A stretch of DNA of 64,000 nucleotides from Inhella crocodyli (lineage in GTDB: Bacteria; Pseudomonadota; Gammaproteobacteria; Burkholderiales; Burkholderiaceae_C), in the NCBI RefSeq assembly GCF_004004565.1, contig NZ_SACM01000001.1:682001-746000 (forward strand), written 5' to 3'. The position numbers were made by a program, and so were the translations under genes. Positions 1,610-64,000 of the stretch are shown piece by piece; position 1 is the first letter of the stretch; each line of letters opens with the position of its first letter. Below the pieces are notes generated by a model. That model was not told the DNA's origin. It was given only the letters and a program-made list of their open reading frames with translations, and ran no database searches.

Positions 1610-1764
1610 CGCGCCGCACTCGGGAATCCTCTGAGTCGCGCGCGTGCGCTATTGCGCGTTTGACAGGCCAAGTGGCTGCCGCAAACGGCTAGCATGCCGC
1701 CATCGAAGCCGGCCCTGCCGGCATCACCCCAAGCGCTTGCCGCCCTGTCAAGGAGGACCCCGCC

Positions 1765-3343: not shown

Positions 3344-3345
3344 GG

Positions 3346-4734: not shown

Positions 4735-4864
4735 GGTGGTGAAGGAATGGGATCGGAAGGGGCGGGATTGTAGGAAGGGGGGGTTTCTTGGCGTTTCAGC
4801 GCCCCGGCTGTCGATTCGTCGAGGTTGGTCCCGAGGGGCCCTGTCCGCTGCCTAGACTGCCAGC

Positions 4865-5983
4865 ATGACGGAATTCATTGCCACCCTGCGGCGAGCCCGC
4901 AAGGACTTTTTCAAGCTGCGCAAGCACCGTGACGTGCCGGCGTGGTCCATGTGGGTCATGACCTTCCTCGTCGCCATGGCCTGGGGAATCGGCATGCTGA
5001 CGCTGGCCGGCTTTGCGGCGAAGCGCGGCGCCTCCACGGCTTGGTGGTTGGAACAGGCCCCGCCGTTCTTGGGCACCACGCTGGTCATCGGTGCGGTGTT
5101 CCACATCGTGTTCTCCTTGATCGAGCGACTCGCGCCGCAACGCTTCATCGACTGGACAAACGGCGAGCCCGGCGTGGGCGTCAGTGCCTTCTTCGCCGTC
5201 ACGTCGATGGCCTGCGTGGCCGCGGGCCTGAGCTTGGCCTACGTCCTTCTGGGGGGCCTGCCGGGGATGGAGCGACTGGACTGGACTCCCGAGCGCAGTT
5301 GGTGGTCCGTGGTGACGGGGTCGGTGTTCTTCAGCGTGATCTGGGGGCTCTGGGCCTGGCAGGAATGGCACGAAGAGCAGCTCAAGCGCCAAACCAAGGA
5401 AGCCGAACTGCGCCTGCTGCAGGCCCAGATCGAACCGCACTTCCTGTTCAACACCCTGGCCAACGTGCGCAGCCTGATCGACTGCGACCCCAAGGAGGCC
5501 GGCGAGCTGCTGGACGCCTTCACCGACCACTTGCGCGCCAGCCTGACCACCATGCGTGCCGAATCGGTGACGCTCGACCAAGAGTTGGCCCTCGTGGGCC
5601 ACTACCTCAAGCTGATGCAACTGCGCATGTGCGAGCGCCTCAGCTTCGGCATCGACGCCGACGAGGCGGCGCGCGCCGTGAGCCTGCCACCGCTGCTGCT
5701 GCAACCGCTGGTGGAAAACGCCATCCACCATGGGCTGGAATGCCAGGTAGAGCCCGGTCACGTTGAGGTCCATGCCCGCGTGCAAGATGGCGTGCTGCGC
5801 ATCACCGTGACCGACGACGGCCTGGGCCTGGACGCGCCGAGAAACCGCAAGGGCAACGGCGTGGCCACGCAGAACATCCGCGAGCGCCTGAGCCGTCGTT
5901 ATGGCTCTCGCGCCCGACTTCACCTCGAACCCGCGCAGCCCAAGGGCACGCGCGCCCTCCTTGAACTGCCCTTGACGCCATGA
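4865..5983 (+). CDS. LytS/YehU-type sensor histidine kinase
   Basis: A 372-residue membrane kinase. About four hydrophobic segments occupy residues 25-170, with no large periplasmic domain. A coiled stretch (HEEQLKRQTKEAELRLLQAQ) leads into the His_kinase family motif QIEPHFLFNTLANV, whose histidine is the phosphorylation site (about residue 197). The ATP-binding part has LLLQPLVENAIHHGLE (N box) and DDGLGLD (G box). Its ATGA overlap with the following LytTR response regulator shows that the two form a two-component pair. The signal is unknown. Confidence 0.92.
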   Translation: MTEFIATLRRARKDFFKLRKHRDVPAWSMWVMTFLVAMAWGIGMLTLAGFAAKRGASTAWWLEQAPPFLGTTLVIGAVFHIVFSLIERLAPQRFIDWTNGEPGVGVSAFFAVTSMACVAAGLSLAYVLLGGLPGMERLDWTPERSWWSVVTGSVFFSVIWGLWAWQEWHEEQLKRQTKEAELRLLQAQIEPHFLFNTLANVRSLIDCDPKEAGELLDAFTDHLRASLTTMRAESVTLDQELALVGHYLKLMQLRMCERLSFGIDADEAARAVSLPPLLLQPLVENAIHHGLECQVEPGHVEVHARVQDGVLRITVTDDGLGLDAPRNRKGNGVATQNIRERLSRRYGSRARLHLEPAQPKGTRALLELPLTP

Positions 5984-6726
5984 CCCTGCGCGCCCTGATC
6001 GCCGACGACGAGCCCCATCTCGTTCGCCACCTGCAAACCCTGCTCGGCCAAGCCTGGCCCGAACTGACGCTGCTGCCTCCGGCACGCAACGGGCTCGAAG
6101 CGGCGGAACGCATCGCCACCGAACAGCCCGAGTTCGCCTTCCTCGACATCCAAATGCCCGGCCTCACCGGGCTTGAGGTGGCGCAAGGCATCGAAGGCCC
6201 GACGCGCGTGGTCTTCGTCACCGCGTACGACGAGTACGCCCTGCCTGCCTTCGAAGCGGCGGCGGTCGATTACCTGCTCAAGCCCTTGAAGCTGGAGCGA
6301 TTGCAAAAGACCGTGGAGCGGCTCAAAGCGCAACTCGGCAGCGAAACCGACGCTTTGCCCCAAGCCGTGGCGGCGCTCGCGCCGGCGCGCCCGGCCCAAG
6401 CCCTGCGCTTCATCCGCGCCAGCAGCGGCGACCTCATGCACCAAGTGGACGTGCAGCAGGTCGTGTACTTCCACGCCGACGAGAAGTACACCGTGGTGCA
6501 AATGGCCGACGGCACCGAACACTTGATTCGCACGCCCATCGCCGAACTCGTGGCCCAACTCGACCCCGACCAGTTTTGGCAGGTGCACCGCGCCACCATC
6601 GTCAACCTGGCGCACCTTGCCGGCACAAGGCGCGACGAGGCGTCGCGCCTGTTCGTGCGCTTCAAAGGGATGGGCCGCGAATTGCCAGTCAGCCGGGCCT
6701 ACGTGGCGCGCTTCAAGGCCATGTGA
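5980..6726 (+). CDS. LytTR-family response regulator (AlgR/LytR type)
   Basis: A 248-residue two-domain regulator. The receiver (about 1-118) has the acidic pocket IADDEP, the phospho-acceptor aspartate in FLDIQMPG (about residue 51), and the conserved VTAYDEYA and LLKPL (lysine). A short linker is followed by a LytTR DNA-binding domain (about 140-245) with VVYFHADEKYT, FWQVHRATIVNL and LPVSRAYVARFK. Such domains bind tandem imperfect direct repeats. It is coupled to the histidine kinase gene and abuts the convergent TerB-like gene with no spacer. Targets are unknown. Confidence 0.93.
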   Translation: MTLRALIADDEPHLVRHLQTLLGQAWPELTLLPPARNGLEAAERIATEQPEFAFLDIQMPGLTGLEVAQGIEGPTRVVFVTAYDEYALPAFEAAAVDYLLKPLKLERLQKTVERLKAQLGSETDALPQAVAALAPARPAQALRFIRASSGDLMHQVDVQQVVYFHADEKYTVVQMADGTEHLIRTPIAELVAQLDPDQFWQVHRATIVNLAHLAGTRRDEASRLFVRFKGMGRELPVSRAYVARFKAM

Positions 6727-7155
6727 TCACGCGGCCCTCGCCAAGGGGGTCCCCGGCATCAGCACCACCGGGTGCACCCCCCAACGCTGCGCAGCCCGCG
6801 CCAGCAGGCGGGATTCGCTGTCGCTGAGGTGTCCGTCGGCCTCCGCCACCTCGATGGCCGCCTGAAGCACCCGCTCGCGCAGGAGAGGGTCGTCCACCTC
6901 GTCCAGCACGCTGTCGAGCGTGCTGTCGTCCAGGTGGCAGGCGCGGCCCCACTGGCGGTTCTCGCTCGCCAACAGGTCCTCGCACAGCTGCTGCAGCAGC
7001 GCCTGCGCTCGGTCGGTGGGCAGGCCCAAGGCCCGGGCCATGCGGGTGGATTGCCAGGCCTCGACCTCGCGTGCATGGGCCACGCCATCGGCGATCAGGG
7101 TCAAGGCCACGAGCCGGGCGGCGGCTTCGGGGCTGTTCTTGGGGTAGGTACGCAC
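6727..7155 (-). CDS. TerB-like (tellurite resistance/DjlA N-domain) protein
   Basis: A 142-residue, all-helical cytoplasmic protein. The N-terminal half has RLVALTLIADGVAHAREVE and the C-terminal half AIEVAEADGHLSDSESRLL, the duplicated acidic ADG...E pattern of the TerB/DjlA fold, which binds metal in some members. Its start is GTG, three bases after the stop of the Bax1-I gene, so it ends an operon hpf-like/Bax1-I/TerB. TerB folds occur in stress and membrane-associated systems; the exact role here is unknown. Nothing else of a ter operon is present, so tellurite resistance should not be assumed. Confidence 0.75.
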   Translation of the reverse strand: MRTYPKNSPEAAARLVALTLIADGVAHAREVEAWQSTRMARALGLPTDRAQALLQQLCEDLLASENRQWGRACHLDDSTLDSVLDEVDDPLLRERVLQAAIEVAEADGHLSDSESRLLARAAQRWGVHPVVLMPGTPLARAA

Positions 7156-7158
7156 CGA

Positions 7159-7845
7159 TCACTCCCCAGCGCTGCTGAAGCCGAACAGGCTCAGGAGGCT
7201 CACGAACAGGTTGTAGACCGACAGAAAAAGGCCCACCGTGGCCATCACGTAGTTGGTCTCGCCACCCTGCACGATGCGGCTCGTTTCGAACAGGATCAAG
7301 CCAGCGGACAGCAAGGCCACCGCCGCCGACACCGCCAGGCTCAGCGCCGGGATCTCCAAAAAGAGCGCCGCCAGACCCGCCACGAGCGCGACGATCATGC
7401 CGATCATCAAGAAGCCGCCCATGAAGCTGAAGTCTTTGCGCGTCACCAGCACGAAGGCCGACAGGCCCAGGAAGGTCACGCCCGTGGTGCCCAAGGCCAT
7501 GGCGATGCTCGCCGCCCCCCCTGGCAAACCAGCGACCGCGTTCAGCACCGGCCCCAATGTGTAGCCCATGAAGCCGGTGAGCGCGAACACCGCCGGCAAG
7601 GCCCAGCCGCTGTTTCGCAGTTTGTGCACGACAAAGAACAGGCAGAGCGTACCAAGCAGGCTCACGATGGGGCCCGGGTGGCGCCAGTCAAAGGCCACAC
7701 CGGCCGTGGCCACGGCGGCGGCCCAGCCGAGGGTCATGGCCAGAAGCGCATAGGTGTTGCGCAGCACCCGATGCGTGGCGATGTGCGCTGCGGAGGAGCG
7801 GCGCGCCGGGGCATTCCAATTCGGGGCCAAAGTGCGATCGTTCAT
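7159..7845 (-). CDS. Bax inhibitor-1/YccA family membrane protein
   Basis: A 228-residue integral membrane protein with seven hydrophobic segments. An N-terminal cytoplasmic tail (to about residue 30) is followed by NTYALLAMTLGWAA, and the family pattern FALTGFMGYTLGPVL and GLILFETSRIVQGGE is present. The start is set at the ATG at 7845, which has AAGGAG at a good distance; a TTG further upstream has no such signal. In other bacteria members act as calcium/proton leak channels or as FtsH-linked quality-control modulators (YccA). It lies between an HPF-like and a TerB-like gene in a tight operon. Confidence 0.9.
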   Translation of the reverse strand: MNDRTLAPNWNAPARRSSAAHIATHRVLRNTYALLAMTLGWAAAVATAGVAFDWRHPGPIVSLLGTLCLFFVVHKLRNSGWALPAVFALTGFMGYTLGPVLNAVAGLPGGAASIAMALGTTGVTFLGLSAFVLVTRKDFSFMGGFLMIGMIVALVAGLAALFLEIPALSLAVSAAVALLSAGLILFETSRIVQGGETNYVMATVGLFLSVYNLFVSLLSLFGFSSAGE

Positions 7846-7888
7846 GACGGACTCCTTCGAGTTCAAGGGTTCAAGGGGCGGCTTTGGA

Positions 7889-8266
7889 TCAGTGCGCGTC
7901 GATCACAGCGCTGCGAGAGGGCAAGGCGAGCAGGTCGCCGCGTCGCATGCGGGGCAGCCGTGGCGAATCGGTGAGTCGCTCGTGCAGGCTGCTCACGTTG
8001 CGCACCAGGCGGGCCAGGGCCCGCTCGAAGGCGATGCGCCAGTCTTCGGCCACCTCGGTCAACACCAAGGCGTGGCCTTGTCGCGTGCGCAGCATCAGCC
8101 GGCAGCGCTTGTCCCGGCCGTTGCGCGGGCCGTTGTCATCGTCAAGGTTGACCTCGATGCGCTGGACCCAGAAGGCCAGGCGTCTCAGCGCGAAGCGCAG
8201 TCGCTCCCGGGTCAGGGGAAGCAAGGGCGAGGCGGCCGCGGTTCGGGTCTTGACGTCAATCTGCAT
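7889..8266 (-). CDS. HPF/RaiA-family ribosome-associated protein
   Basis: A 125-residue protein resembling the ribosome-hibernation factor fold: MQIDVKTRT, then a beta-strand IEVNLDDDNGPRNGRDKRCRLM and a C-terminal helix WRIAFERALARLVRNV. It lacks the ribosome-dimerising C-terminal domain of long HPF. The chosen ATG has GGAG upstream; a longer frame starting at 8371 would begin in the divergent regulator gene and add a low-complexity FFFL tail. It is the first gene of a three-gene operon with Bax1-I and TerB-like genes. A role in stress-related ribosome protection is family-based inference; it is more divergent than the housekeeping HPF. Confidence 0.75.
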   Translation of the reverse strand: MQIDVKTRTAAASPLLPLTRERLRFALRRLAFWVQRIEVNLDDDNGPRNGRDKRCRLMLRTRQGHALVLTEVAEDWRIAFERALARLVRNVSSLHERLTDSPRLPRMRRGDLLALPSRSAVIDAH

Positions 8267-8369
8267 GGTCCATCTCCAGAAGGAACGGGAAAACGCTGCG
8301 ATCGTGCGCGCAGCAACCTTCAGAAAGAAGAAGATGCAGACTGATTGATGTTCAGTTTTAATCTGAGCC

Positions 8370-9257
8370 ATGAACTACCACCACCTGCACTACTTCTGGG
8401 TCGTCGCCACCGAAGGCGGCATGGCACGGGCGGCAGAGCGCCTTGGCGTGGCGGTGCAAACCGTCTCGGCCCAGGTTCACCAGTTGGAACGCGCCTTGGG
8501 CGTGTCGCTCTTCAAGCCTGAAGGACGGGGCCTGACCCTGACCGAGGCGGGCCAGGTGGCCTTGGCACAGGCCCAGCAGATCTTTCAGTTGGGTGCCCAG
8601 CTGCCCGAGGCGGTGCGCGCGGCGGCGCAAGCGCCCACCCTGCGACTGGCCGTGGGACTGGCCGATGGCCTGCCCAAGCTGTTGGTGCACCAAGTGTTGT
8701 CGCCCGTCCTGGGCGTTAGCAACCTGCGTCTGCAGTGCTTCGAGGACAACCCCGACGATTTGCTGGCCGCCCTGGCCCTGCACCGATTGGACCTCGTGCT
8801 GGCCGACCGCCCTCCCGCGGCCAATCCCAACCTGCGCCTGTACACCCACCGCCTGGGAGGCTCCGGCATGGGTTGGTACGCGGCACCCGAGTTGCATGCC
8901 AAGGCCGCCTCCGATTTCCCCCGCTCAATGGCCGGCGTGCCGGTGCTGCTGCCCACGGCCCACGCCGCCGTGCGCACGCCCCTGGACCGCTGGTTCCAAC
9001 GCCTGGACCTCCGCCCGCAGGTGGTGGGCGAGTTCCAAGACAGCGCCTTGCTCAAAACCTTCGGCGCCTCGGGCCTGGGGGTGTTCCCCGCCGTGGACGC
9101 GGTCCACGAGCACGTGGTCCAACGGTATGGCGTGTTGCGCGTGGGCGCCATCGAAGGGGTCGAGGAGCAGGTGTGGGCGATCGGGACCGAGAAACGCGTC
9201 CAGCACCCTTTGGTGGCCAAGCTCTTGGCAGGGACAGGTCCGAAAACCGCGTCTTGA
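8370..9257 (+). CDS. LysR-family regulator, NhaR type
   Basis: A 295-residue LysR protein. The N-terminus MNYHHLHYFWVVATEGGMARAAERL (landmark HHLHYFW) and the helix-turn-helix GVAVQTVSAQVHQLE are characteristic of NhaR, the sodium/pH-responsive activator of nhaA, rather than of generic LysR proteins. The C-terminal effector domain (about 90-290) includes GLADGLPKLL and VGEFQDSALLKTFGASGLGVF, also NhaR-like. It is divergent from the HPF-like operon with about 100 bases between the starts, so it may control that operon. No antiporter gene is in view. Confidence 0.88.
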   Translation: MNYHHLHYFWVVATEGGMARAAERLGVAVQTVSAQVHQLERALGVSLFKPEGRGLTLTEAGQVALAQAQQIFQLGAQLPEAVRAAAQAPTLRLAVGLADGLPKLLVHQVLSPVLGVSNLRLQCFEDNPDDLLAALALHRLDLVLADRPPAANPNLRLYTHRLGGSGMGWYAAPELHAKAASDFPRSMAGVPVLLPTAHAAVRTPLDRWFQRLDLRPQVVGEFQDSALLKTFGASGLGVFPAVDAVHEHVVQRYGVLRVGAIEGVEEQVWAIGTEKRVQHPLVAKLLAGTGPKTAS

Positions 9258-9285
9258 GTGGCCGCGGGCCCAACACAATCGGCCC

Positions 9286-10737
9286 ATGCCCTCAACGCCC
9301 CGCCCTTTGGACCCCGCCGCCTGCTACGCCGCCTTGCAAGCACGCGACGCCCGCTTCGACGGCCATTGGTTCACGGGCGTGACCAGCACCGGGGTGTACT
9401 GCCGGCCCATCTGCCGCGTTCGCACCCCAAAGGCCGAGAACTGCCGCTTCTTCCCCCACGCCGCCGCCGCCGAATCGGCCGGTTTCCGACCTTGTTTGAA
9501 GTGCCGGCCCGAACTGGCGCCGCGGTCGTTCTCGGTCATGGAGGCGTCCCGCTCCTTGGCCCATGCCGCCCGCGAGCGGCTCGATGCGGCCGCCCGGCAC
9601 GGTGAGGGGCCCTCGCTGGAGGCGCTGGCGAAGGGTCTCGGGGTCACCGCCCGGCACCTGCGCCGCATCTTTGCCGACGCCTTCGGCGTTTCTCCCCTGG
9701 CCTACTTGCAGACGCAGCGCTTGCTGACCGCCAAGCAGTTGCTGACCGACACCCAACTGCCCCTGGCCAGCGTGGCCGCCCAGGCGGGCTTTGGCAGCAC
9801 GCGCGCCTTCCAAGACGCCTGGTCCCAACAGTACCGCCTGGCCCCGCTGCAACTGCGCAAGCAGGCCGCGCAAACGGCGGCGCCGCCCCTCACGCTGAGC
9901 TATCGGCCCCCGTATGCCGTGCCCGAGCTGCTGTCCTTTCTGGCCGTTCGGGCCATCCCCGGCGTGGAAGACGTGGACCAGGCGCGGCGTCGGGTGCGCC
10001 GCACCGTGCGTGCCGGTACCACCGTGGGTCAGTTGGCCGTGGAGTTCGATGCCGACCTGCCGAGGGTGCGCCTCCACCTGTCCGACACCCTGTGGCCCCA
10101 TGCCGCCGAGATTCAAGGCCGGGTGCGGCAGTGGCTGGACCTGGACGCCGACCCCGACGCCATCGCCCAGCGCCTGGCCGCCCTGCGGCCGACGCCAGGG
10201 CTGCGCCTGGCGGGCGGCGTCGACCGCTTCGAGCTGGCGGTGCGCGCGGTGCTGGGTCAGCAGGTGACCGTGGCCGCAGCGCGCACCGTGAGCCAACGCG
10301 TGGTGCAGGCCTGGGGCCAAGCCTTGCCCGATGCGCAAGGCCTGGGCGAGGGCCAGGCGTGGCTGTTCCCCACGCCCCAAGCCCTGGCCCATGCCAGCGT
10401 CGAGGCCGTGGCGGCGTGTGGCATGCCCCTGCGGCGGGCGCAATGCTTGGTGGGCCTGGCCCAAGCCTGGCCCGCGCTGCGGATGGCGCAGCCCACGCCG
10501 CACGACCCCGATGCGGCCGAGGCCGAATTGCAGCAACTGGCCGGCATCGGCCCCTGGACGGCGGCCTACATCCGCATGCGCGCCTGGCCCTGGCCCGACC
10601 GCTTCTTGCCCGGCGATGGGGTGCTGCGCCAGCAACTGGCCCTGGACCCTCACGACCCCACCGTCTTCGCCCCCTACCGCAGCTACGCCGTGCTGCAACT
10701 GTGGCAACGCGCCACGCTTGCGAAAGCCCCCTCATGA
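9286..10737 (+). CDS. alkA: Ada-AlkA fusion: methyl-phosphotriester sensor plus 3-methyladenine DNA glycosylase II
   Basis: A 483-residue multidomain repair protein. Residues 1-80 form the Ada zinc domain with C39, C43, C70 and C73 (GVYCRPIC ... FRPCLKC); C39 is the expected methyl acceptor. An AraC-type helix-turn-helix spans about 95-190 (SLEALAKGLGVTARHLRRIF, then TQLPLASVAAQAGFGSTRAFQDAW). The rest (about 195-483) is AlkA, with the helix-hairpin-helix LQQLAGIGPWTAAYI and the catalytic aspartate in the GDGVL stretch. The fusion links methyl-phosphotriester sensing, transcription activation and base excision. The start is the ATG at 9286; a much longer upstream frame overlaps the LysR gene and is spurious. 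It overlaps ogt by 4 bases. Confidence 0.93.
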   Translation: MPSTPRPLDPAACYAALQARDARFDGHWFTGVTSTGVYCRPICRVRTPKAENCRFFPHAAAAESAGFRPCLKCRPELAPRSFSVMEASRSLAHAARERLDAAARHGEGPSLEALAKGLGVTARHLRRIFADAFGVSPLAYLQTQRLLTAKQLLTDTQLPLASVAAQAGFGSTRAFQDAWSQQYRLAPLQLRKQAAQTAAPPLTLSYRPPYAVPELLSFLAVRAIPGVEDVDQARRRVRRTVRAGTTVGQLAVEFDADLPRVRLHLSDTLWPHAAEIQGRVRQWLDLDADPDAIAQRLAALRPTPGLRLAGGVDRFELAVRAVLGQQVTVAAARTVSQRVVQAWGQALPDAQGLGEGQAWLFPTPQALAHASVEAVAACGMPLRRAQCLVGLAQAWPALRMAQPTPHDPDAAEAELQQLAGIGPWTAAYIRMRAWPWPDRFLPGDGVLRQQLALDPHDPTVFAPYRSYAVLQLWQRATLAKAPS

Positions 10738-11225
10738 GCACCGCCCCCTTGTTGGCGCAGTTCCGCACCGAAACCCCCTATGGCCCCGTCCTCCTGGCCC
10801 GCACGGCCAAGGGCCTGGCGGGCCTGTGGAACGCCGGTCAGGCCCACCACCCACCGCCCTTGAGCGCGCCCGTAGCCAATCACCCCTGGTTTGACGCCGC
10901 ACGACGTGCGCTGGACGCCTGGGCCACCTTGAAGGACGACCCCGTGCTGCCGCCTCTGGACCCGCAGGGCACCGCGTTCCAGCAGGCGGTCTGGGTGCGC
11001 CTGCTCGCCATCCCCCGCGGTGGGTTGACCAGCTATGGGGCCATCGCCCACGCCTTGGGCAAGCCGCAAGCCAGTCGGGCCGTGGGCGCCGCGGTGGGGC
11101 GCAATCCCATTGGCATCCTGGTGCCCTGCCATCGCGTGGTGGGCGCCCGTGGAGAGCTCACCGGCTACGCTGGGGGCCTGCCCCTCAAAACCCTGCTGCT
11201 GCAGCAAGAAGGCGTCTTGATCTGA
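10734..11225 (+). CDS. ogt: Methylated-DNA-[protein]-cysteine S-methyltransferase
   Basis: A 163-residue O6-alkylguanine-DNA alkyltransferase. The acceptor site is VPCHRVVG with C132; the arginine finger and helix-turn-helix are in SYGAIAHALGKPQASRAVGAAVGRNP. The N-terminal half is short and lacks the Ada sensing domain, which is supplied by the neighbouring fusion. The start overlaps the alkA stop (ATGA) and the stop overlaps the start of the EamA transporter (TGATG), so all three genes are coupled. Probably induced together with alkA by methylation damage through the Ada-type sensor. Confidence 0.95.
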   Translation: MSTAPLLAQFRTETPYGPVLLARTAKGLAGLWNAGQAHHPPPLSAPVANHPWFDAARRALDAWATLKDDPVLPPLDPQGTAFQQAVWVRLLAIPRGGLTSYGAIAHALGKPQASRAVGAAVGRNPIGILVPCHRVVGARGELTGYAGGLPLKTLLLQQEGVLI

Positions 11226-12109
11226 TGAAACCCGCCGACCTGGCTGAATTGCTGGCCTTGGCCGCCATTTGGGGCGCCTCCTTTTTGTTCATGCGCTGGG
11301 GGGCCCCAGAGTTCGGTGCGCTGTCCCTCGCCTGGCTGCGGGTGCTGCTGGCCTCGCTGGCGCTGCTGCCCTTGTTGGCGTGGCGGCAAGGCGGCGGCAG
11401 CCTGGCCTTGATGCGCCAGCACTGGCGGCCCCTGCTGCTGATGAGCTTTGCCAACTCCGCCCTGCCCTTCGCGTTGTTTGCCTACGCGGCCCTGCACCTG
11501 CCCGCGGGCCTGTCCAGCATCCTCAACGCGACCGTGCCCATGTGGGGCGCCTTGGTCGCCTGGGTCTGGTTGGGGCAGGCCCCCACCGCATGGCGCCTGC
11601 TGGGCCTGGCCGTGGGCTTCGGTGGGGTCGTGCTGCTGGTGTGGGCGAAAACGGGGCTGAGCGGCGATGCACGGTTTTGGGCGGTGCTGGCCTGCCTGCT
11701 GGCGACGCTGAACTACGCCGTCGCCGCCATGGCCACCAAGCGTTGGTTGGGCGATTTGCCCCCGTTGGCCGTGGCCACCGGCAGCCAACTGGGCGCGGCA
11801 GCGTGGTTGCTGGTGCCCGGTTGGTGGGCCTGGCCCGCCGTGATGCCCGGGCCGAGCGCCTGGGGCAGCTTGTTGGCGCTGGCCCTGCTGTGCACCGGGG
11901 TGGCGTACATCCTGTACTTCCGCCTCATGACCCGGGTGGGGCCCACGAATGCCATCACGGTCACCTTCTTGATCCCGGTGTTCGCCGTGATCTGGGGCGC
12001 GCTCTTCTTGGGCGAGCCCTTGACCTTGCCGATGCTGGGCGGCGGCCTGCTGGTGCTGGCGGGCACGGCCATGGCCTTGGGGCTGTGGCCGCGCCGCTCA
12101 CCGACCTGA
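11225..12109 (+). CDS. EamA/DMT-superfamily inner-membrane transporter
   Basis: A 294-residue protein with ten hydrophobic segments in two repeated EamA halves (about 5-140 and 150-290). Landmarks are AAIWGASFLFMRWG at the start, LNATVPMWGALVAWVWLG, and FLIPVFAVIWGALFLGEPLT in the second half. This family exports metabolites and drugs; the substrate cannot be told from sequence. It is translationally coupled to ogt (TGATG), placing an exporter in an alkylation-repair cassette, although chance operon membership is possible. Confidence 0.88.
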   Translation: MKPADLAELLALAAIWGASFLFMRWGAPEFGALSLAWLRVLLASLALLPLLAWRQGGGSLALMRQHWRPLLLMSFANSALPFALFAYAALHLPAGLSSILNATVPMWGALVAWVWLGQAPTAWRLLGLAVGFGGVVLLVWAKTGLSGDARFWAVLACLLATLNYAVAAMATKRWLGDLPPLAVATGSQLGAAAWLLVPGWWAWPAVMPGPSAWGSLLALALLCTGVAYILYFRLMTRVGPTNAITVTFLIPVFAVIWGALFLGEPLTLPMLGGGLLVLAGTAMALGLWPRRSPT

Positions 12110-12149
12110 GGCGGGCGCCAGGGCCCGCACGCGGCCCCGGGCGGAAGAC

Positions 12150-18861
<6,712 letters not shown>

Positions 18862-18878
18862 GGCTGCCGGTCGAAACA

Positions 18879-18939
18879 AAGCCCGTTCTCTCTATGAAAA
18901 CGGGCTTGAAATGGGGCGCGGATGATAGCATCGCGCCCC
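18879..18939. promoter_or_regulatory. Two inverted repeats in the smc-queF divergent intergenic region
   Basis: The 99-base space between smc and queF contains AAGCCCGTT (18879-18887) facing AACGGGCTT (18899-18907), a perfect 9-bp arm with an 11-nt loop. Next to it is GGGGCGCGGATG (18913-18924) facing CATCGCGCCCC (18929-18939), 11 bp with one bulged G. The first would form a hairpin in the smc leader; the second overlaps where divergent promoters are expected. They may be operators or leader structures; function is unknown. Confidence 0.5.
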
Positions 18940-18960
18940 CTCCCGAACGCCCCCGCCGCC

Positions 18961-19443
18961 ATGGCCACCACCAAGAAGAAGACCCCCCCGGCCAGCCAGC
19001 GCCAGAAGCCCACCAACCCGCCCAGCAAGCCGAGCAAAGAGCTGCAGGTGTTCCCGAACCCGGCGCCTCAACGCGATTACCTGCTGCAGTTCCAGGTGCC
19101 CGAGTTCACCTGCCACTGCCCGCTGACCGGCCAGCCGGACTTCGCCCACTTCACCATCGAGATGGTGGCCGACGAGTGGTGCGTCGAGCTCAAGAGCTTG
19201 AAGATGTACATGTGGAGCTACCGCGACGAGGGCGCGTTCCACGAGGCCGTGACGAACAAGATCCTGGACGACATCGTCAAGGTGACCAACCCGCGCTTCG
19301 CCCGCATCAAGGCCCGCTGGTACGTGCGCGGCGGCATCTACACGAACATCGTGGCCGAGCACCGCAAAAAGGGCTGGAAGCCGGCCACGCCGGTCGAGTT
19401 CCCCGCCTTCCCGATGGAATCGGGCTTGCTGGCCGGCGGATGA
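18961..19443 (+). CDS. queF: NADPH-dependent 7-cyano-7-deazaguanine reductase
   Basis: A 160-residue protein of the short QueF class, which reduces preQ0 to preQ1 in queuosine synthesis. The nucleophile is in [13 protein letters not shown] (probably C53, with the family aspartate at about D60), and the QueF signature [13 protein letters not shown] follows. The ATG at 18961 gives a lysine-rich N-terminus; a longer in-frame start at 18922 falls in the inverted-repeat region. It overlaps dapC by 4 bases (ATGA). No preQ1 riboswitch is visible upstream. Confidence 0.95.
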
Positions 19444-20645
19444 ACCCCCGCCTCGCCCTCCTCCAGCCCTACCCCTTCGAGCGCCTGAAGGCCGAGCTGG
19501 CGGGCATCCAGCCGCCGGCGGGCCTGCGCGCCATCAGCCTGGGCATGGGCGAACCGCGCCACGACGCACCGCCCGAAGTGCTGGCGGCGCTGCGCAACAA
19601 CCTGGGCGGCTTGTCGAACTACCCGGCCACCGCCGGCGGTGAGCCGCTGCGGCAGGCCATTGCGGCCTGGGTGCACCGGCGCTACGGGGTGGCCTTGAAC
19701 GCGGCCACACAGCTGCTGCCCGTGAACGGCTCGCGCGAGGCGCTGTTCGCCATCGCGCAAACGGTGATGGACGCCAGCCAAGCCGGCGCCACCGTCGTGT
19801 GCCCCAACCCGTTCTACCAAATCTACGAGGGTGCGGCCCTGCTGGCCGGGGCGCAGGTCGCCTTCGCCAACAGCGACCCGGCACGCAACTTCGCGGTCGA
19901 CTGGACGTCCATCGACGACGCCACCTGGGCGCGCACGCAGCTGCTGTACGTGTGCACGCCGGGCAACCCCAGCGGCGCGGTGATGCCCCTGGCCGAATGG
20001 GAGCGCTTGTTCGCCTTGAGCGACCGGCACGGCTTTGTCATCGCCGCCGATGAGTGCTACTCCGAGATCTACCTCGAGGACGAGCCCCCATTGGGCAGCC
20101 TGCAAGCGGCCCAGGCCCTGGGCCGAAGCGACTTCAAGAACCTGATCAGCTTCACCAGCCTGTCCAAGCGCAGCAGCGTGCCGGGCCTGCGCTCGGGTTT
20201 CGTCGCGGGCGACGCGGCGCTGATCAAGGCCTTCCTGCTCTACCGGACGTACCACGGCAGCGCCATGGGGCCGGCGGTGCAAGCCGCCAGCGTCGCCGCC
20301 TGGAACGACGAAGCCCACGTGGCCGCCAATCGGGCGCTGTACCAAGCCAAGTTCCAGGCCGTGCTGCCCTTGCTGCACGACGTGCTGGACGTGCAAGCCC
20401 CGGATGCGGGCTTCTACCTGTGGGCTGGCGTGCCTTCCCACGTGGAGGGGGGCTGCGACCTCGCCTTCGCGAAGGCCCTGCTCGCACAATGCAACGTTCA
20501 CGTCTTGCCCGGCAGCCTGCTGGCCCGGGAAGCCCAAGGCGTGAACCCAGGACGCGGCCGCGTGCGGCTGGCCCTGGTGGCCGAACTGGCCGACTGCGTG
20601 GAAGCCGCGCAGCGCATCCGCAACCAATTGTTGAGTCCCGCATGA
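19440..20645 (+). CDS. dapC: Succinyldiaminopimelate transaminase
   Basis: A 401-residue class-I PLP aminotransferase. [37 protein letters not shown] and the PLP-lysine region [17 protein letters not shown] (lysine at about 246) are present. It is placed directly before dapD with an ATGA overlap, so it makes N-succinyl-L,L-diaminopimelate in the succinylase branch of lysine and peptidoglycan synthesis. The specific assignment leans on that context, since close homologues have other substrates. Confidence 0.93.
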
Positions 20646-21466
20646 CCGTCGAACTGCAATCCCTCCTCGAAGCCGCCTGGGAACGGCGCACCGAGTTCAG
20701 CCCGAAGAGCGCCCCGGCCGACGTGCGCGACGCCGTGAACCACGTGTTGGGCGAACTCGACGCCGGCCGCCTGCGCGTGGCCAGCCGCGAGGGCGTGGGC
20801 CAGTGGACGGTTCACCAGTGGATCAAGAAGGCCGTGTTGCTCAGCTTCCGCTTGAACGACAACGTGCCCCAGGGCAGCGGCCCGATGAGCTTCTACGACA
20901 AGGTGCCCACCAAGTTCGAAGGCTGGAGCGCCGAGCAGTTCGCCGCCAGTGGCGTGCGCGTGGTACCGCCGGCCGTCGCCCGCCGTGGCAGCTTCGTGGC
21001 CAAGAACGTGGTGCTGATGCCCTCGTACGTGAACATCGGCGCCTTTGTCGACGAAGGCGCCATGGTCGACACCTGGGCCACCGTGGGCAGCTGCGCGCAA
21101 ATCGGCAAGAACGTGCACCTGAGCGGCGGCGTGGGCATCGGCGGGGTGCTGGAGCCCCTGCAGGCCAACCCCACCATCATCGAAGACCACTGCTTCATCG
21201 GGGCCCGCTCTGAAGTCGTGGAGGGCGTGATCGTCGAAGAACACTCCGTCATCTCGATGGGCGTGTACATCGGCCAAAGCACGCCGATCTTCGACCGGGA
21301 AACCGGCGAGATCACCTACGGCCGCGTGCCCGCCGGCTCGGTGGTCATCAGCGGCAGCCTGCCGCGCGATGGCGGTCGCTACAACCTGTACGCTGCGATC
21401 ATCGTCAAGAAGGTCGACGCCCAAACCCGCGCCAAGACCTCGATCAACGAGTTGCTGCGCGCTTGA
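20642..21466 (+). CDS. dapD: 2,3,4,5-tetrahydropyridine-2,6-dicarboxylate N-succinyltransferase
   Basis: A 274-residue left-handed beta-helix succinyltransferase. The N-terminal helical domain has [18 protein letters not shown]; hexapeptide repeats run from about residue 105 to 230 ([51 protein letters not shown]). It uses succinyl-CoA to commit the diaminopimelate pathway. Coupled upstream to dapC; 10 bases separate it from the pilU-like gene. Confidence 0.97.
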
Positions 21467-55950: not shown

Positions 55951-57475
<1,525 letters not shown>

Positions 57476-57483
<8 letters not shown>

Positions 57484-58447
57484 GGGGGGTGTTCCTCAAA
57501 AACAGGGTCAACAGGTCGCGGGCGGCGGTGCTGGCGGCCAGTGTGCCGGCGCGCACCGCTTGCTCCAGCCCGGGTAAACGCGCCGCCACGGCGGCGTGGT
57601 CGTGGAAGGCCTGCTGCAGGCCAGCCTGGATGCGCTCGTGCAGCCAGGCGATGTCTTGTCGGTGCCGCCGCGCGTCGCGGTCCTGCGCCGCTTGCTGGCG
57701 CTGCACGGCCTGCCACACCTCGGCCACGCCCTGGCCGGTGAGGCTGCTGGCCTGCAGCACTTCCACCGGTGCCGACGCGCCATGCGCTTGGCCGTGCAGT
57801 CGCAAGCTGGACACGATGTGCACCTGCGCCCGCATGGCCGCGGCGGCATCGAGGTCGGCCTTGTGGATGACCACCAGGTCGGCCAACTCCATCACCCCGC
57901 GCTTGATGGCTTGGAGTTCGTCACCGGCATTGGGCAACTGCAGCAAGCAGAAGCAATCGGTCATGCCGGCCACCGCCACCTCGCTCTGGCCCACGCCCAC
58001 GGTTTCGACGATCACCACGTCGTAGCCGGCGGCCTCGACGATGCGAATGAGTTCCCGCGTGTGGCTGGCCACGCCACCCAAGACGCCGCGGCTGGGGCTG
58101 GGGCGGATGAAGGCGGCCTCTTGCACCGACAGGCGCTCCATGCGCGTCTTGTCGCCCAAGATGGAGCCGCCCGACAGGCTGCTGCTGGGGTCCACGGCGA
58201 GCACGGCCACGCGGTGGCCTTGCTGGATCAGGTGCAGACCCAGGGCTTCGATGAAACTGCTCTTGCCGACCCCGGGCACGCCGCTCAGGCCCAAACGCAC
58301 CGCGCCGCCGCTGTGCGGCAGGCAGGCGGTGAGCAGGGCATCGGCCTGGGCACGGTGGGCCGGCAGGCTGCTTTCCAGCAGGGTGATGGCCTTGGCCAGG
58401 GCGCGGCGGCCTGCCGGGCCGCCTTGGCGCAGGGCGTCCACGCTCAT
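57476..58447 (-). CDS. meaB: Methylmalonyl-CoA mutase-associated GTPase (MeaB/ArgK)
   Basis: A 323-residue G3E-family GTPase. The P-loop is GVPGVGKSS (56-64), followed by [46 protein letters not shown] (switch III region) and VIHKADLD for guanine recognition. It guards cofactor loading and repairs B12-inactivated mutase. It lies one gene after mcm, joined to the GNAT gene by ATGA. Confidence 0.95.
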
Positions 58448-58884
58448 CGTGCGGGCTCCCAGCGGTAGCGGGTGTCGATGTCTTGCACGGCCAAAACCCT
58501 GAAACCGTGGCGTTGGTAAAAGCGGTTGGCGTCGCTGCCTTGCAAGGCTTCCAGTTCGACGGCCACGCCAGCGGCCGCGGCTTCGCTCTGCACGCTGTCC
58601 AGCGCCCACCGGCCCAGGCCTTGGCCCTGGTGCCCGGGGGCGATGTAGAGGTGCTGCACGTGCCAGGGGTCGCGCTCGCGGTGCACGGTCAGCAGGCCGA
58701 CCCGTTCCCCAGCGACTTCGATCCACCGCATGGCGGCCGGATGGAACTGCCCGGCGAAGCGCTCGCGCGCCCGCGTCAAGTCGAATCGGCCCAGCGCCTC
58801 CAGCGAGGGTCGCATGGCGGCCACTCGCAAGGCCAGCAGGGCCTCGAAGTCCTCCGCCTGCACGGCGGCGAACGCCAAGCTCAT
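58444..58884 (-). CDS. GNAT-family N-acetyltransferase
   Basis: A 146-residue acyltransferase. The acetyl-CoA loop is [20 protein letters not shown] (Q-x-x-G-x-G/A pattern), and the C-terminal [21 protein letters not shown] is typical of small GNAT proteins. It overlaps mcm upstream and meaB downstream (both ATGA), so it is made in step with the mutase. The substrate is unknown; acylation of a pathway enzyme using an acyl-CoA of the pathway is a possible role but only inference. Confidence 0.83.
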
Positions 58885-61046
58885 GCGGCGCCCACGGCCT
58901 CGCGGATGTGCTTCAGCACGTCCCGCGCGCTGTCGGGGATGGGGGTGCCAGGGCCGTAAATGCCCTTCACGCCCTGGGCGTAGAGGAAGTCGTAGTCCTG
59001 CTGCGGGATCACGCCGCCCACGAACACGATGATGTCGTCGGCGCCCTGCTTCTTGAGCTCGGCAATGATGGCCGGCACCAGGGTCTTGTGGCCCGCGGCC
59101 AGGGTGGACACGCCCACGGCGTGCACGTCGTTTTCGATGGCCTGGCGGGCGCACTCCTCGGGCGTTTGGAACAGGGTGCCGATGTCCACGTCGAAGCCCA
59201 GGTCGGCAAAGGCCGTGGCCACCACCTTGGCGCCGCGGTCGTGCCCGTCTTGGCCCAGCTTGGCGATCATCACGCGCGGTCGGCGGCCGTGCTGGCCCTC
59301 AAAGCCGGCCACCTCGGCCTGCAAGGCCTGCCACTCGTCGGGCGCCGTGTAGGCGCCGGCGTACACGCCGCTCACCTTGTGGATGTCCGCGCGGTGGCGG
59401 CCGTAAACCGTTTCGAGTGCATCGCTCACCTCCCCCACCGTGCAGCGCACGCGCATGGCTTGAATCGACAGCGCCAGCAGGTTGCCCTCGCCCGAGCGGG
59501 CGGCCTCGGTCAGCGCGGCCAATGCGGCTTGCACCGCGGCGGCGTCGCGCGTAGCCTTGATCTGGGCCAGGCGCGCCACCTGCTGCTCGCGCACCTTGAC
59601 GTTGTCGACCTCCAGCACGTCGACGGGGTCTTCCTTGGCCAGCTTGTACTTGTTGACGCCGACGATCACGTCGGCCCCGCTGTCGATGCGGGCCTGCTTC
59701 TGCGCCGCGCTGGCCTCGATCTGCAGCTTGGCCCAACCGCTGGCCACGGCCTGGGTCATGCCGCCTTGGCCTTCCACCTCTTCGATGATCGACCACGCCT
59801 TGTCGGCCAGCTCCTGCGTCAGCTTTTCCATCATGTAGCTGCCGGCCCAGGGGTCGACGACGCTGGTGATGTGCGTTTCCTCTTGCAGGATGAGCTGGGT
59901 GTTGCGGGCGATGCGGCTGGAAAACTCGGTCGGCAGCGCGATGGCCTCGTCGAAGCTGTTGGTGTGCAGGCTTTGCGTGCCGCCGAACACCGCCGCCATA
60001 GCTTCCACGGTCGTGCGAACGATGTTGTTGTACGGGTCTTGCGCCGTCAGGCTCCAGCCGCTGGTTTGGCAGTGGGTGCGCAGCATCAGGCTCTTCGGGT
60101 CCTTCGCCCCGAAGTCGCCCATGATCCGGCTCCACAGCAGGCGGGCCGCCCGCAGCTTGGCCACTTCCAAGTAGAAGTTCATGCCGATGGCGAAGAAGAA
60201 GCTCAGGCGGGGTGCAAACGCGTCCACCGCCAAGCCGCGCTTCATGGCCGTGCGCACGTACTCCATGCCGTCGGCCAGGGTGAAGGCAAGCTCCAGCGCC
60301 TGGTTGGCGCCGGCTTCTTGCATGTGATAGCCGCTGATCGAGATGCTGTTGAACTTCGGCATCTCGGCGGCGGTGTGGGCCATGATGTCCGCCACGATCC
60401 GCATGCTGGGCGCCGGCGGGTAGATGTAGGTGTTGCGGACCATGAACTCCTTGAGGATGTCGTTCTGGATGGTCCCGCTCAGCTTGGCGCTGGGCACGCC
60501 CTGCTCCTCCCCGGCCACCACGTAGGCCGCCAGCACCGGCAGCACGGCGCCGTTCATGGTCATGCTGACCGAGACCTGGTCCAGCGGGATGCCGTCGAAC
60601 AAGATCTTCATGTCTTCGACCGAATCGATGGCCACGCCGGCCTTGCCGACATCGCCCACCACGCGCGGGTGGTCGCTGTCGTAGCCGCGGTGCGTGGCCA
60701 GGTCGAAGGCCACGCTCACGCCTTGGCCGCCGGCGGCCAGGGCCTGGCGGTAGAAGGCATTGCTCTCCTCGGCGGTGGAAAAGCCGGCGTACTGGCGGAT
60801 GGTCCAGGGCCGCACGGCGTACATCGTGGCCTGGGGCCCGCGCAGAAACGGCGCGAAGCCAGGCAAGGTGTCGGCGTGGGGAAGCCCGGCCAGATCGGCC
60901 GCCGTGTACAGCGGCTTGACCCGCAAGCCCTCCGGGGTCACCCAAGTCAACGCGCCCACGTCCCCACCCGGGGCCGATTTGGCGGCCGCCTTCTCCCATT
61001 GGCTCAAGGTCGGGGCGGCGGTTTCAGCGGGTTTCTTGTCGGTCAT
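58881..61046 (-). CDS. mcm: Methylmalonyl-CoA mutase (single-chain, B12-dependent)
   Basis: A 721-residue homodimer-type mutase. The TIM-barrel N-domain has [22 protein letters not shown] (landmark [10 protein letters not shown]), [29 protein letters not shown] and [15 protein letters not shown]. The C-terminal B12 domain has [15 protein letters not shown], with the cobalt-ligating histidine in DGHDRG, then [12 protein letters not shown]. It converts methylmalonyl-CoA to succinyl-CoA. The start is the ATG at 61046. It is the first gene of the seven-gene propionate operon, divergent from a GntR gene. Confidence 0.97.
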
Positions 61047-61152
61047 GGTCGGCCTTGGGGCGGTCGGGCAAGGGATCGCGGCGACCCGCGTTCCCTGATG
61101 AGGGGACCCGCGAAGCGCCATTTGTTGTGCGGTGCATCATAGCGTCCGCGTT

Positions 61153-61168
61153 ATTCATAATTATGAAT
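61153..61168. promoter_or_regulatory. Perfect 16-bp palindrome, likely GntR operator
   Basis: ATTCATAATTATGAAT is a perfect dyad in an AT-rich island 107 bases upstream of mcm and 102 bases upstream of the GntR gene. On the minus strand it overlaps a plausible promoter (TAGTCA, 16 bases, TATGAA). It is the best candidate site for the FadR-type regulator encoded to the right. Confidence 0.65.
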
Positions 61169-61269
61169 TCAAAACTGACTACACTCTGACACCATCGGCC
61201 CACGATGCCAGGGCGCAGCGCCCATGCTGCGCCGGCCCTGGCCGCCTGTCCATCCGCCCTGCCCCCACC

Positions 61270-61914
61270 ATGCCCGCCGCCCCACTCGCCCCGCGCGCCC
61301 TCTACCTGGAGGTGGCCGAGCACGTTCGCCAGCGGATCTTTGGGCGGCAGCTGGAGCCAGGCGCCTGGATCGACGAGCAAGCCCTGTGCGCCGAGCTCGG
61401 CATCAGCCGAACGCCCCTGCGCGAAGCCCTCAAGGTGCTGGCCGCCGAAGGCCTGGTGACCATGAAGGTGCGACGCGGCGCCTACGTGACCGAAATGAGC
61501 GAGCGCGACGTGCGCGAGGCCTATCAATTGCTGGCCCTCTTGGAGAGCGACGCCGCCGCCGAGCTGGCCGCGCGCGCCACCGAGGCCGAATTGGCAGAGC
61601 TGCAAGGCCTGCACGAGCAGCTAGAGCGCAGCGTGCACCAGCGCGACGCCTTCTTCGCCGCCAACGAGCGCTTCCACCTGCGCCTGTTGGAGCTGGAAGG
61701 CAACCGCTGGCGGCTGCACATGGTGACCGATTTGCGCCGGCTCATGAAGCTCAACCGGCACCACAGCCTGTTCCAGCAAGGGCGCCTGGCGGAATCCCTG
61801 GAAGAGCACCGCCAATTGATGGCCGCGCTCGCCCAACGCGACCCCGCGCGGGCCGCTCAAGTGGCCCGCCAGCACTTCGACAACGGCATACAGGCCGCGC
61901 GACCGGCGTCCTGA
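61270..61914 (+). CDS. GntR-family (FadR/FCD) transcriptional regulator
   Basis: A 214-residue regulator. The winged helix spans about 8-75 (LYLEVAEHVRQRIFGRQLEPG, CAELGISRTPLREALKVLAAEGLV). The all-helical FCD effector domain follows (about 85-205), with ANERFHLRLLELEGNRW and EEHRQLMAALAQRDPARAAQVARQHF carrying the metal-ligand histidines. It is divergent from mcm with a perfect palindrome between them, so it probably represses the propionyl-CoA operon in response to a pathway acid or CoA ester. The start is the ATG at 61270, since upstream residues lack homology. Confidence 0.92.
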   Translation: MPAAPLAPRALYLEVAEHVRQRIFGRQLEPGAWIDEQALCAELGISRTPLREALKVLAAEGLVTMKVRRGAYVTEMSERDVREAYQLLALLESDAAAELAARATEAELAELQGLHEQLERSVHQRDAFFAANERFHLRLLELEGNRWRLHMVTDLRRLMKLNRHHSLFQQGRLAESLEEHRQLMAALAQRDPARAAQVARQHFDNGIQAARPAS

Positions 61915-62236: not shown

Positions 62237-64000
62237 ATGGCTTCTCTGATCTCCAGCCTGACCTCCGACCAAATCGCCGCCCTGTCAACGGTGACCTTGG
62301 CCCGGCTGACCAGCGACGACTGGGCGGCGTTCAACACGAATCAGATCCAGGCGCTGACCACCGACCAGGTGCGCAGCCTCAGCAGCCAGGCCTTCGGTTT
62401 CCTCAGCACCGAGCAGTTCGCGGCCTTCGAGACGCGGGACCTGCAGGTCATCAGCACGGCGGCCCTGTCGACGCTGAAGACCGACATGCTCAACGCCCTG
62501 AGCACCGACCAGATGGGCGCGCTGACCTCGGCGCAGGTCAAGGGCCTGACCACCGGGCAAATCGCCTCGCTGGTCTCCGACAACGTCAACGCCCTGACCA
62601 CGGCGCAGTTCGCCAACCTCAGCACCACCCAGCTGGGCGCGCTGACCACCGACCAGGTGTCGGTGCTGGAGTCGGCCGACCTGGTGGCCATCGGCAGCAC
62701 CGGCATCCGCGCCTTCAGCAGCGCGGCCGTGGGCGCCTTGTCCACCGACAACATCGCCGCGCTCAGCTCCACCCAGGCGGCCGTGCTCACCAGCACCCAG
62801 GCCAAGGGCCTGACCACCGACCAGATCGACGCCCTGGGCAGCGCCAACGTCGGCGTGCTGTCCACCGACCTGCTGCGCAGCCTGACCACGGCCCAGATCG
62901 CCGCCATGGACTCGGCGCAGTTCTCGGCCCTGAAGAGCTCGCAGGTGCAGGCCTTCAGCACCGCCCAGATCTCGGCCCTGCCCACCGACACCCTGAACGC
63001 CCTGGGCACGGCCCAGTTCAACGCCCTGTCCACCACCCAGGTGTCGGCCCTGACGACCGACCAACTGGCCAGTCTGGAAACCGACGACCTGCGCGCCTTG
63101 AGCACCAACGCGCTGCGCTCGCTGTCCAGCGCCCAGGTGGGCGCCCTGAGCACCGACGGCGTGGTGGCCTTGACCACCGCGCAAGCCGCGTCGATCACGT
63201 CCAACCAGGCCAAGGGCTTGAGCACCGACCAGCTCGGTGCGCTGCAAACCGACGACCTGCGCGCCCTCAGCACCGACACCCTGCGCTCGCTCAGCTCCAA
63301 CCAGGTTGGCGCCCTCAGCACCGACAACATCGTGGCCTTGACCACGGGGCAGGCCGCGGCCCTGGCCTCGAACCAAGTGCAAGGCCTGAGCACCGACCAG
63401 ACCGGCGCCCTGCAAACGGACGACCTGCGCGCCTTGGGCACCGCCACGCTGCGGGCCCTGAGCACCGACCAGCTGGGCGCCTTGGGCTCTGACCAGCTCG
63501 GCGCGCTGACCACGGTGCAGGTGCAAAACCTCACCACCCAGCAAGTCGCCGGCCTCGACACCGACGACCTCAACGCCTTCGGCACCGCCCAGTTCGCGGC
63601 CATGACCACCGGCCAGCTGACCGGCCTGACCACCGACCAGGTGGCCAGCCTGCAGACGGCCGACCTGGTGGCCATCGGCTCGGCGGGCCTGCGTGCCCTG
63701 AACTCGGCCCAAGTGGGGGCCCTGAGCACCGATGGCGTCGTGGCCCTCACAACAACGCAGGCGGCCAGCCTGACCACCGGGCAAGCGGCCGGCCTGACCA
63801 CGGACCAAATGGCCGCCATGGCCACCGACGACCTGCGTGCCCTGTCGTCCGCGACCCTGCGCGCCCTCGACTCCGACCAACTGGGCGCCCTGACCAGCAC
63901 GCAATTGGGGCAACTGACCACCGCCCAGATCCAGGCCTTGACCACCGGCCAGCTGGCAGGCTTGGCCACCGACGACCTGAATGCCCTGACCACCGGCCAG
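62237..64000 (+). CDS. Giant octapeptide-repeat protein (N-terminal 588 residues; continues beyond window)
   Basis: The frame opens at MASLISSLTSDQIAAL and stays open to the window end. From residue 5 on, all 584 visible residues fall into 73 contiguous eight-residue units with no insertion or deletion; consensus is hydrophobic-x-A-L-[ST]-[ST]-x-[QD], for example VGALSTDG, LRALSTDT, IQALTTGQ. There is no signal peptide, no cysteine, very little lysine and much D, Q, S, T and A. T-T-D-Q would cap a short helix, so a helical or mixed solenoid is conceivable; a beta-solenoid is also possible. Similar L-T-T-x-Q repeats occur in large putative surface proteins of Burkholderiales, which would be exported by type I secretion, but no such export gene is in view. 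Function unknown. Confidence 0.82.
   Translation, partial: MASLISSLTSDQIAALSTVTLARLTSDDWAAFNTNQIQALTTDQVRSLSSQAFGFLSTEQFAAFETRDLQVISTAALSTLKTDMLNALSTDQMGALTSAQVKGLTTGQIASLVSDNVNALTTAQFANLSTTQLGALTTDQVSVLESADLVAIGSTGIRAFSSAAVGALSTDNIAALSSTQAAVLTSTQAKGLTTDQIDALGSANVGVLSTDLLRSLTTAQIAAMDSAQFSALKSSQVQAFSTAQISALPTDTLNALGTAQFNALSTTQVSALTTDQLASLETDDLRALSTNALRSLSSAQVGALSTDGVVALTTAQAASITSNQAKGLSTDQLGALQTDDLRALSTDTLRSLSSNQVGALSTDNIVALTTGQAAALASNQVQGLSTDQTGALQTDDLRALGTATLRALSTDQLGALGSDQLGALTTVQVQNLTTQQVAGLDTDDLNAFGTAQFAAMTTGQLTGLTTDQVASLQTADLVAIGSAGLRALNSAQVGALSTDGVVALTTTQAASLTTGQAAGLTTDQMAAMATDDLRALSSATLRALDSDQLGALTSTQLGQLTTAQIQALTTGQLAGLATDDLNALTTGQ
62249..64000 (+). repeat. Tandem 24-bp coding repeats, 73 copies
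   Basis: This is the DNA underlying the octapeptide array. Units are diverged (roughly GCCCTGAGCACCGACCAG phased every 24 bases) but in perfect register. A larger module of about five units (LRxLxSxQ, VGALSTDx, xVALTTxQ, AAxLxxxQ, AKGLTTDQ) recurs at visible units 20, 37, 44 and 61, i.e. spacings of 17, 7 and 17 units, which indicates block duplications. The lack of stops creates long false frames on the opposite strand. Confidence 0.88.

Follow-up and report, generated by a model that had tools for sequence, protein, structure and literature searches.

A giant ALTTAQ-repeat protein of Inhella crocodyli, predicted to coil as an alpha-solenoid and linked to an OGT-like GT41 enzyme and a type I exporter

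Soluble glycosyltransferases that modify bacterial surface proteins are among the closest described parallels to the locus reported here. The HMW1 adhesin is glycosylated by HMW1C, itself a GT41 enzyme (PMC3012730), and the flagellins of Caulobacter are O-glycosylated in the cytoplasm, prior to export, by FlmG, a protein combining TPRs with a glycosyltransferase (PMC7591256). Both resemble our system in that a soluble glycosyltransferase acts on a surface protein, however HMW1C forms an Asn linkage and HMW1 leaves the cell by two-partner secretion, and flagellin uses the flagellar exporter, whereas here an OGT-like GT41 is paired with a type I secretion system (T1SS). A further relative is Neisseria FrpC, whose self-processing domain works outside the cell and is described as cleaving an Asp-Pro bond in a Ca-dependent manner, through an anhydride mechanism that uses that Asp (PMC7078468).

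The repeat of our protein is itself already known by name, judging by its match to Pfam family PF20080 (ALTTAQ_rpt) and its similarity to HeliScrew4 (PDB 9zem, 120 residues). The PF20080 profile matches the full product at E = 0 with 2,255.7 bits (curated cut-off 26.4) in 104 stretches. The original prediction had called the protein uncharacterised; given the Pfam match the repeat is not new, and in the open-access literature we found neither a functional paper on PF20080 or one naming the ALTTAQ repeat, nor a paper on HeliScrew4. That literature likewise yielded no description of the architecture as a whole, of the 3.4-octad code, of the GT41-T1SS bundle or of the missing Asp at the FrpC cleavage site, and the tie of the octads to a sugar enzyme and the measured coil appear to be new.

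The window, that is the whole stretch analysed (64,000 nucleotides; positions 682001-746000 of contig C9 of the I. crocodyli genome, G000), holds the 5′ part of the gene, 588 of its 3,140 codons, at 62237-64000 on the plus strand. A start codon and the four-residue N-terminus MASL (62237-62248) are followed by 73 octads in phase (62249-64000; residues 5-588) without indel, and the frame stays open up to the end of the window. No frameshift or stop comes just after it: the gene runs on to a TAA stop at position 753659 of the contig, giving a product of 3,140 aa with 363 octads in one phase (residues 5-2908), the last of which forms the junction to the C-terminal domain. A loose pattern, hydrophobic-x-x-[LIVMF]-x-[ST]-x-x, fits all 73 octads of the window and 352 of 363 in the whole array, against a mean of 13.9 and a maximum of 23 of 363 in 200 residue shuffles of the whole array. 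The stricter hydrophobic-x-A-L-[ST]-[ST]-x-[QD] that had been proposed fits just 16 of 73 (77 of 363) and therefore stands as a consensus, not as a rule. Ser/Thr occupies octad position 5 in 225 and position 6 in 355 of the 363 octads. The lack of cysteine noted earlier extends to all 3,140 residues, and no signal peptide was recognised by eye at the N-terminus, where octads begin at residue 5. RTX, VCBS and DUF4214 domains, looked for as possible signs of a secreted adhesin, gave no Pfam match in the protein up to E = 1, nor is there an RTX nonapeptide (0 GGxGxD in 3,140 aa; a single lone GxGxD).

We favour, with somewhat better than even confidence, a reading in which this protein is a type-I-secreted surface rod that is O-glycosylated in the cytoplasm; export is very likely and glycosylation probable, both being argued from gene linkage. 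The protein, which has no recognisable signal peptide, would be synthesised in the cytoplasm, where a dedicated OGT-like GT41 would O-glycosylate the Ser/Thr-rich octads, as suggested by linkage and, by analogy, by the HMW1C and FlmG precedents. It would then exit in one step through an LssB-type ABC/HlyD/TolC type I system. Outside, Ca2+ would fold the FrpC-like C-terminal domain and the octads would coil to an alpha-solenoid in which each turn takes up about 3.4 octads (27 residues). The array would make some 107 turns, which at 10 Angstrom per turn predicts a rod of about 100 nm; an acidic stripe poor in Ser/Thr would run along it, opposite a stripe of Arg. We infer this order of events (glycosylation, export, folding), and the role at the surface would most likely be that of a spacer, adhesin or matrix protein. 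The octad array, the predicted fold, the periodicity, the gene linkage and the missing self-cleavage Asp were computed here.

We give an even chance to a wider proposal: that OGT-like GT41s and type I exporters constitute a widespread, unrecognised pathway building O-glycosylated alpha-solenoid rods with 3.4 octads per turn, the array being a quasi-periodic code (7, 10, 17 and 27 octads) that aligns acidic, basic and glycosylated stripes along a rod of at least 100 nm. We know of no natural substrate for most bacterial OGT-like enzymes. If the proposal is true, many bacterial OGT homologues would gain a native one, and the recurring bundle of OGT-like enzyme, type I exporter and Ser/Thr-rich rod makes the substrate question directly testable.

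The candidate exporter lies 3′ of the octad gene on the opposite strand. A gene without assignment, a GT2-like gene and a methyltransferase come first, then (contig positions) a TolC-like gene (757643-759097; OEP over the Pfam cut-off, TIGR01844 at 54.7 and below cut-off), HlyD (759137-760327; TIGR01843, 324 bits, over cut-off), an LssB-type ABC transporter (760324-762687; TIGR03375, 770 bits, over cut-off) and a TPR-GT41 (762698-764782; PF13844, 251 bits, plus TPR models), with a plus-strand solute-binding-like gene (below the Pfam cut-off) between the methyltransferase and the TolC-like gene. In order of transcription the genes are GT41, ABC, HlyD and TolC; 10 bp separate the first two, HlyD overlaps ABC by 4 bp and another 39 bp precede TolC, and the four form a predicted operon. 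It lies 4 kb from the octad gene (9 kb to the GT41), on the other strand and with other genes between, an arrangement that counts against the favoured reading and leaves the octad protein a putative substrate of that exporter. The finding of ABC, HlyD and TolC-like genes 4-9 kb past the gene, together with the FrpC-like Ca-binding end, lends support to the type I secretion that had been suggested. The methyltransferase perhaps methylates the glycan. Methyltransferases 50-52% like that of the own cluster also lie near octad genes in loci L080 (3992-4615), L081 (1050-1664), L079 (6277-6900) and L090 (3884-4501).

As to the linkage that this GT41 would form, its structure search returned Xanthomonas OGT, human OGT and another O-glycosyltransferase (5a01), which we take to be that of Drosophila, and none of the 24 sequences listed was an HMW1C-type N-glycosyltransferase. 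One of its lysines aligns with a lysine in both XcOGT and human OGT, presumably the catalytic Lys842. A role of Lys842 in OGT is described in PMC4683255. N-x-S/T sequons are not enriched in the octad protein (8 against 9.1 expected), thus O-linkage fits better.

The distribution of octads was surveyed in 300 order genomes, 398 phylum-sample genomes and 14 control genomes, I. crocodyli and G234 being in both the order and the phylum set. PF20080 was found in 14 of the 300 (13 above cut-off; G234 and G251 match only at E ~1e-4), in 28 of the 398 and, among the controls, in Caulobacter vibrioides only. GT41 (PF13844) occurs in 163 of the 300 order genomes and in 11 of the 14 octad-positive ones (p = 0.053, or 0.079 without the own genome), as well as in all 20 octad genomes picked via 20 of 40 named loci; its presence by itself is not specific to octad genomes. 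Linkage, defined as a GT41 on the contig of the octad gene within 25 kb, was found in 8 of the 14 order genomes (G000, G058, G129, G131, G180, G187, G278 and G281, all within 13 kb), where 0.23 would be expected (P 2e-12; a rough window, with random places assumed). It was also found in 14 of the 20 named genomes and in seven (G644, G401, G412, G343, G371, G339 and G625) of 12 phylum genomes, which were chosen from the 28 octad-positive ones with none from the order sample. The same gene order recurs at the octad loci of Pelomonas, two Ideonella, G058 and Paucibacter (TolC lying 10.7 kb further on in the last). Unrelated genomes also carry T1SS genes next to their octad genes. In Duganella, Rugamonas and Pseudomonas the linked ABC transporter is just 27-30% like our own, which weighs against the favoured reading.

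The rod might also be secreted by the type I system without being the substrate of the GT41, which would then modify another exported protein or the exporter, all sharing a common surface locus; we regard this as unlikely, while keeping it in serious consideration. In its favour stand the GT2-like and methyltransferase genes that intervene in the own locus, and the 17 of 46 genomes in the three samples where no GT41 was found near the octad gene (six of 14 order, six of 20 named, five of 12 phylum). In the order sample these are G096, G166 and G193, with GT41 on other contigs (that of G166 lies with a T1SS at a contig end), and G234, G245 and G251, with no GT41 match; in the phylum sample, G363, G382 and G386, with no common contig among the matches listed, and G664 and G487, with octads and no GT41 match. 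The named ones are Mitsuaria, R. terrae, a Rubrivivax bin, R. depolymerans, R. chitinivorans and D. guangzhouensis. The first five hold the GT41-ABC-HlyD-TolC operon elsewhere in the genome (Mitsuaria, three Roseateles and the Rubrivivax bin; GT41 65-66% and ABC 63-64% like our own), and D. guangzhouensis has a second octad-FrpC-like C-terminus 0.5 kb from a GT41.

Two points speak against such a shared locus: in 11 of the 46 genomes no more than 1.5 kb separate GT41 and octad gene, and the linked GT41s fall into two clades, whose members neighbour octad genes in Burkholderiales, in Pseudomonas and in a bin of Riflebacteria. When 54 GT41 proteins from the fetched loci were placed in a tree, a 25-row and a 6-row clade, each with 100/100 support, held 30 of 31 linked rows and one of 23 unlinked rows (L157, a second copy in D. 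guangzhouensis), although the position of some long branches is uncertain and the clustering is inflated by near-copies. Outside both lie the linked GT41 of G131 and 22 of 23 unlinked rows, including the second GT41 of I. crocodyli. The label "linked" here means linked to an octad gene or to a T1SS operon, G166 being so labelled for its T1SS and contig end. An earlier, less well trimmed tree of 48 rows, in which L157 was labelled as linked, agreed with this, having 29 of 30 linked rows in two clades and 18 of 18 others outside. When the own GT41 was searched against the 300 order genomes, the next best matches were G058, G129 and G166 (723, 560 and 546 bits, followed by 373), all of them octad-positive (13 such among the other 299; chance 6.5e-5).

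A few further observations were made on GT41 genes. In the Riflebacteria bin (L104), which belongs to another phylum, octad genes at 1760-12916 and 15583-20781 are flanked by two GT41 genes. Open frames of about 2,400-3,800 aa in which several pairs of GT41 domains follow one another in tandem (family f87 of the phylum sample) were seen in G401 (C92, 27095-35212), G363 (C29), G382 (C141), G386 (C30) and G412 (C1), and share a contig with octad genes in G401 and G412. G339 holds 58 GT41 matches.

Turning to the array, amino-acid identity between octads is 0.351 at lag 1, 0.405 at lag 7 and 0.524 at lag 17, hence the 7- and 17-octad spacings noticed earlier are real. The identity peaks, in descending order, are 17 (0.52 against about 0.35), 34, 41, 24 and 7 octads. 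In many relatives the main unit is 17 or 27 octads with strong side peaks at 7, 10, 24, 34, 37, 41 or 44, in some the unit carries additional residues (139, 141 or 217 aa), and others have no clear unit. In L104 the main lag is 139 aa (17 octads and 3 residues) rather than 136. Lags 7, 10, 17, 24, 27, 34, 37, 41 and 44 are all near whole multiples of 3.4, and weaker lags among the top five of relatives also fall off this series (1-6, 9, 13, 14, 21, 30, 38 and 47). Recurrence at 17 or 27 octads, and also at 7 and 10, is expected if there are about 3.4 octads per turn. When the residue classes of our array were subjected to Fourier analysis, the peak stood at 0.294 per octad (3.40 octads per turn) and was 4.6 times as high as in the best of 100 octad shuffles. 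Among 45 arrays, of which nine are not above their own shuffles and several are close relatives or from the same genome, the peak is at 0.2935-0.297 in 27, at 0.4075-0.4185 in 11 (roughly where twice the 0.294 frequency would alias) and elsewhere in seven (one at 0.289). This twist, obtained from sequence alone, offers a rule for reading octad solenoids.

Drift and unequal crossing-over might explain the differences among octads, the 17-octad period then merely recording how the array grew, which we consider improbable. Block duplication does occur, as seen in the 17- or 27-octad units and in a block at lag 85 (5 x 17; octads ~160-175 against 245-260 of L009, outside the window) with up to 83% DNA identity, which looks like a recent duplication and is the clearest one met; some relatives also lack a clear unit. 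Fourfold-degenerate third bases, however, are 0.598 identical at lag 17, at the background level (mean 0.595, SD 0.023, lags 1-119), while the amino acids are conserved, and thus the octad register is kept by selection at the protein level. At lag 7 these sites are slightly raised (0.641, two SD up), a point in favour of duplication. Within the window the values of 0.604 (lag 17) and 0.640 (lag 7) lie in the range of the other lags shown (0.577-0.723), so the recent segmental duplication originally read from the two spacings is not borne out. Growth by duplication also sits poorly with relatives of differing units (17 and 27) agreeing on 3.37-3.41 octads per turn, and with the residue classes of our protein, which cluster by phase round the circle when ordered by the 3.4 twist: Asp at position 7 near 330 degrees, Asp at position 8 and Glu at position 5 near 20, Arg at position 2 near 208. 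At position 5 the Ser/Thr share drops to 0.05-0.14 at 21-42 degrees; the highest values, 0.76-1.00, are reached at 212-296, with 0.76-0.77 likewise at 85-106. The octad differences are not noise.

An AlphaFold2 model of 34 octads, two 17-octad lengths (63065-63880; residues 277-548; mean pLDDT 95.9), makes each octad a short helix and a turn and the whole an alpha-solenoid, in which Ser/Thr of positions 5 and 6 occupy the turn and the beginning of the helix. Together with the third bases, the twist and the phase clustering, the model upholds the expectation of a regular solenoid under selection, and being helical it speaks against an ice-binding protein. Mesothelin (8cx3, 7ued) and ARM-repeat solenoids are among the closest known systems by fold comparison; HeliScrew4 was not among the 50 fold matches listed and is likened by sequence only (109 residues aligned gap-free, E 5.7e-18). 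In several VIA-align rows the 34 octads cover importin-alpha residues 81-495, a span of about ten ARM layers of ~42 residues each. These rows agree roughly with 3.4 octads per layer, and others (beta-catenin) are nearer 3.7. The remark that eight residues are too short for TPR or HEAT repeats thus holds for one octad, and by the twist and the fold matches about 3.4 octads together may form one ARM-like turn. Alpha-solenoids are mostly intracellular. For ARM repeats this is also stated in PMC2628672. Together with the missing signal peptide it would fit a cytoplasmic filament or scaffold whose nearby exporter is there by chance, yet we hold this very improbable, as octad genes have T1SS genes for neighbours even in genomes that are unrelated, and the FrpC domain is described as acting extracellularly (PMC7078468). 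The intracellular fibre of the original prediction is accordingly unlikely given the T1SS linkage. An N-terminus with no recognisable signal peptide also suits the type-I-secreted rod, as substrates of T1SSs are likewise made without one.

At the C-terminus, residues 2909-3077 (169 residues) match the structures of the FrpC self-processing module (6sjw and 6sjx; E ~1e-35) and hold two EF-hand-like loops by pattern search. Our protein shares this match and the loops with Neisseria FrpC, but differs in having Thr-Pro for Asp-Pro and in being without RTX nonapeptides. Although the module match and the loops could suggest self-cleavage followed by a covalent bond between the rod and a neighbour, in the manner of Neisseria FrpC, we give this the least credence of all: the junction could be recognised in 24 distinct octad proteins, all of which have Thr (17) or Ser (7) before the cleavage-site Pro, and the anhydride mechanism uses the Asp (PMC7078468). 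To judge from these residues, the domain is probably kept as a Ca-folding part with cleavage absent.

Two minor observations concern the surroundings of the gene. Upstream, 55951-61914 encodes, by eye, an acyl-CoA carboxylase subunit, a MeaB-like GTPase and a methylmalonyl-CoA mutase, followed by a GntR/FCD regulator (Pfam), apparently a propionate-type pathway with no relation to the octad gene. On the antisense strand a frame stays open through almost all of the octad gene (62285-64000, minus strand; 8286-17591 of L009, minus strand, 3,101 aa); rather than being a gene, it most likely results from high G+C and the repetition of codons.
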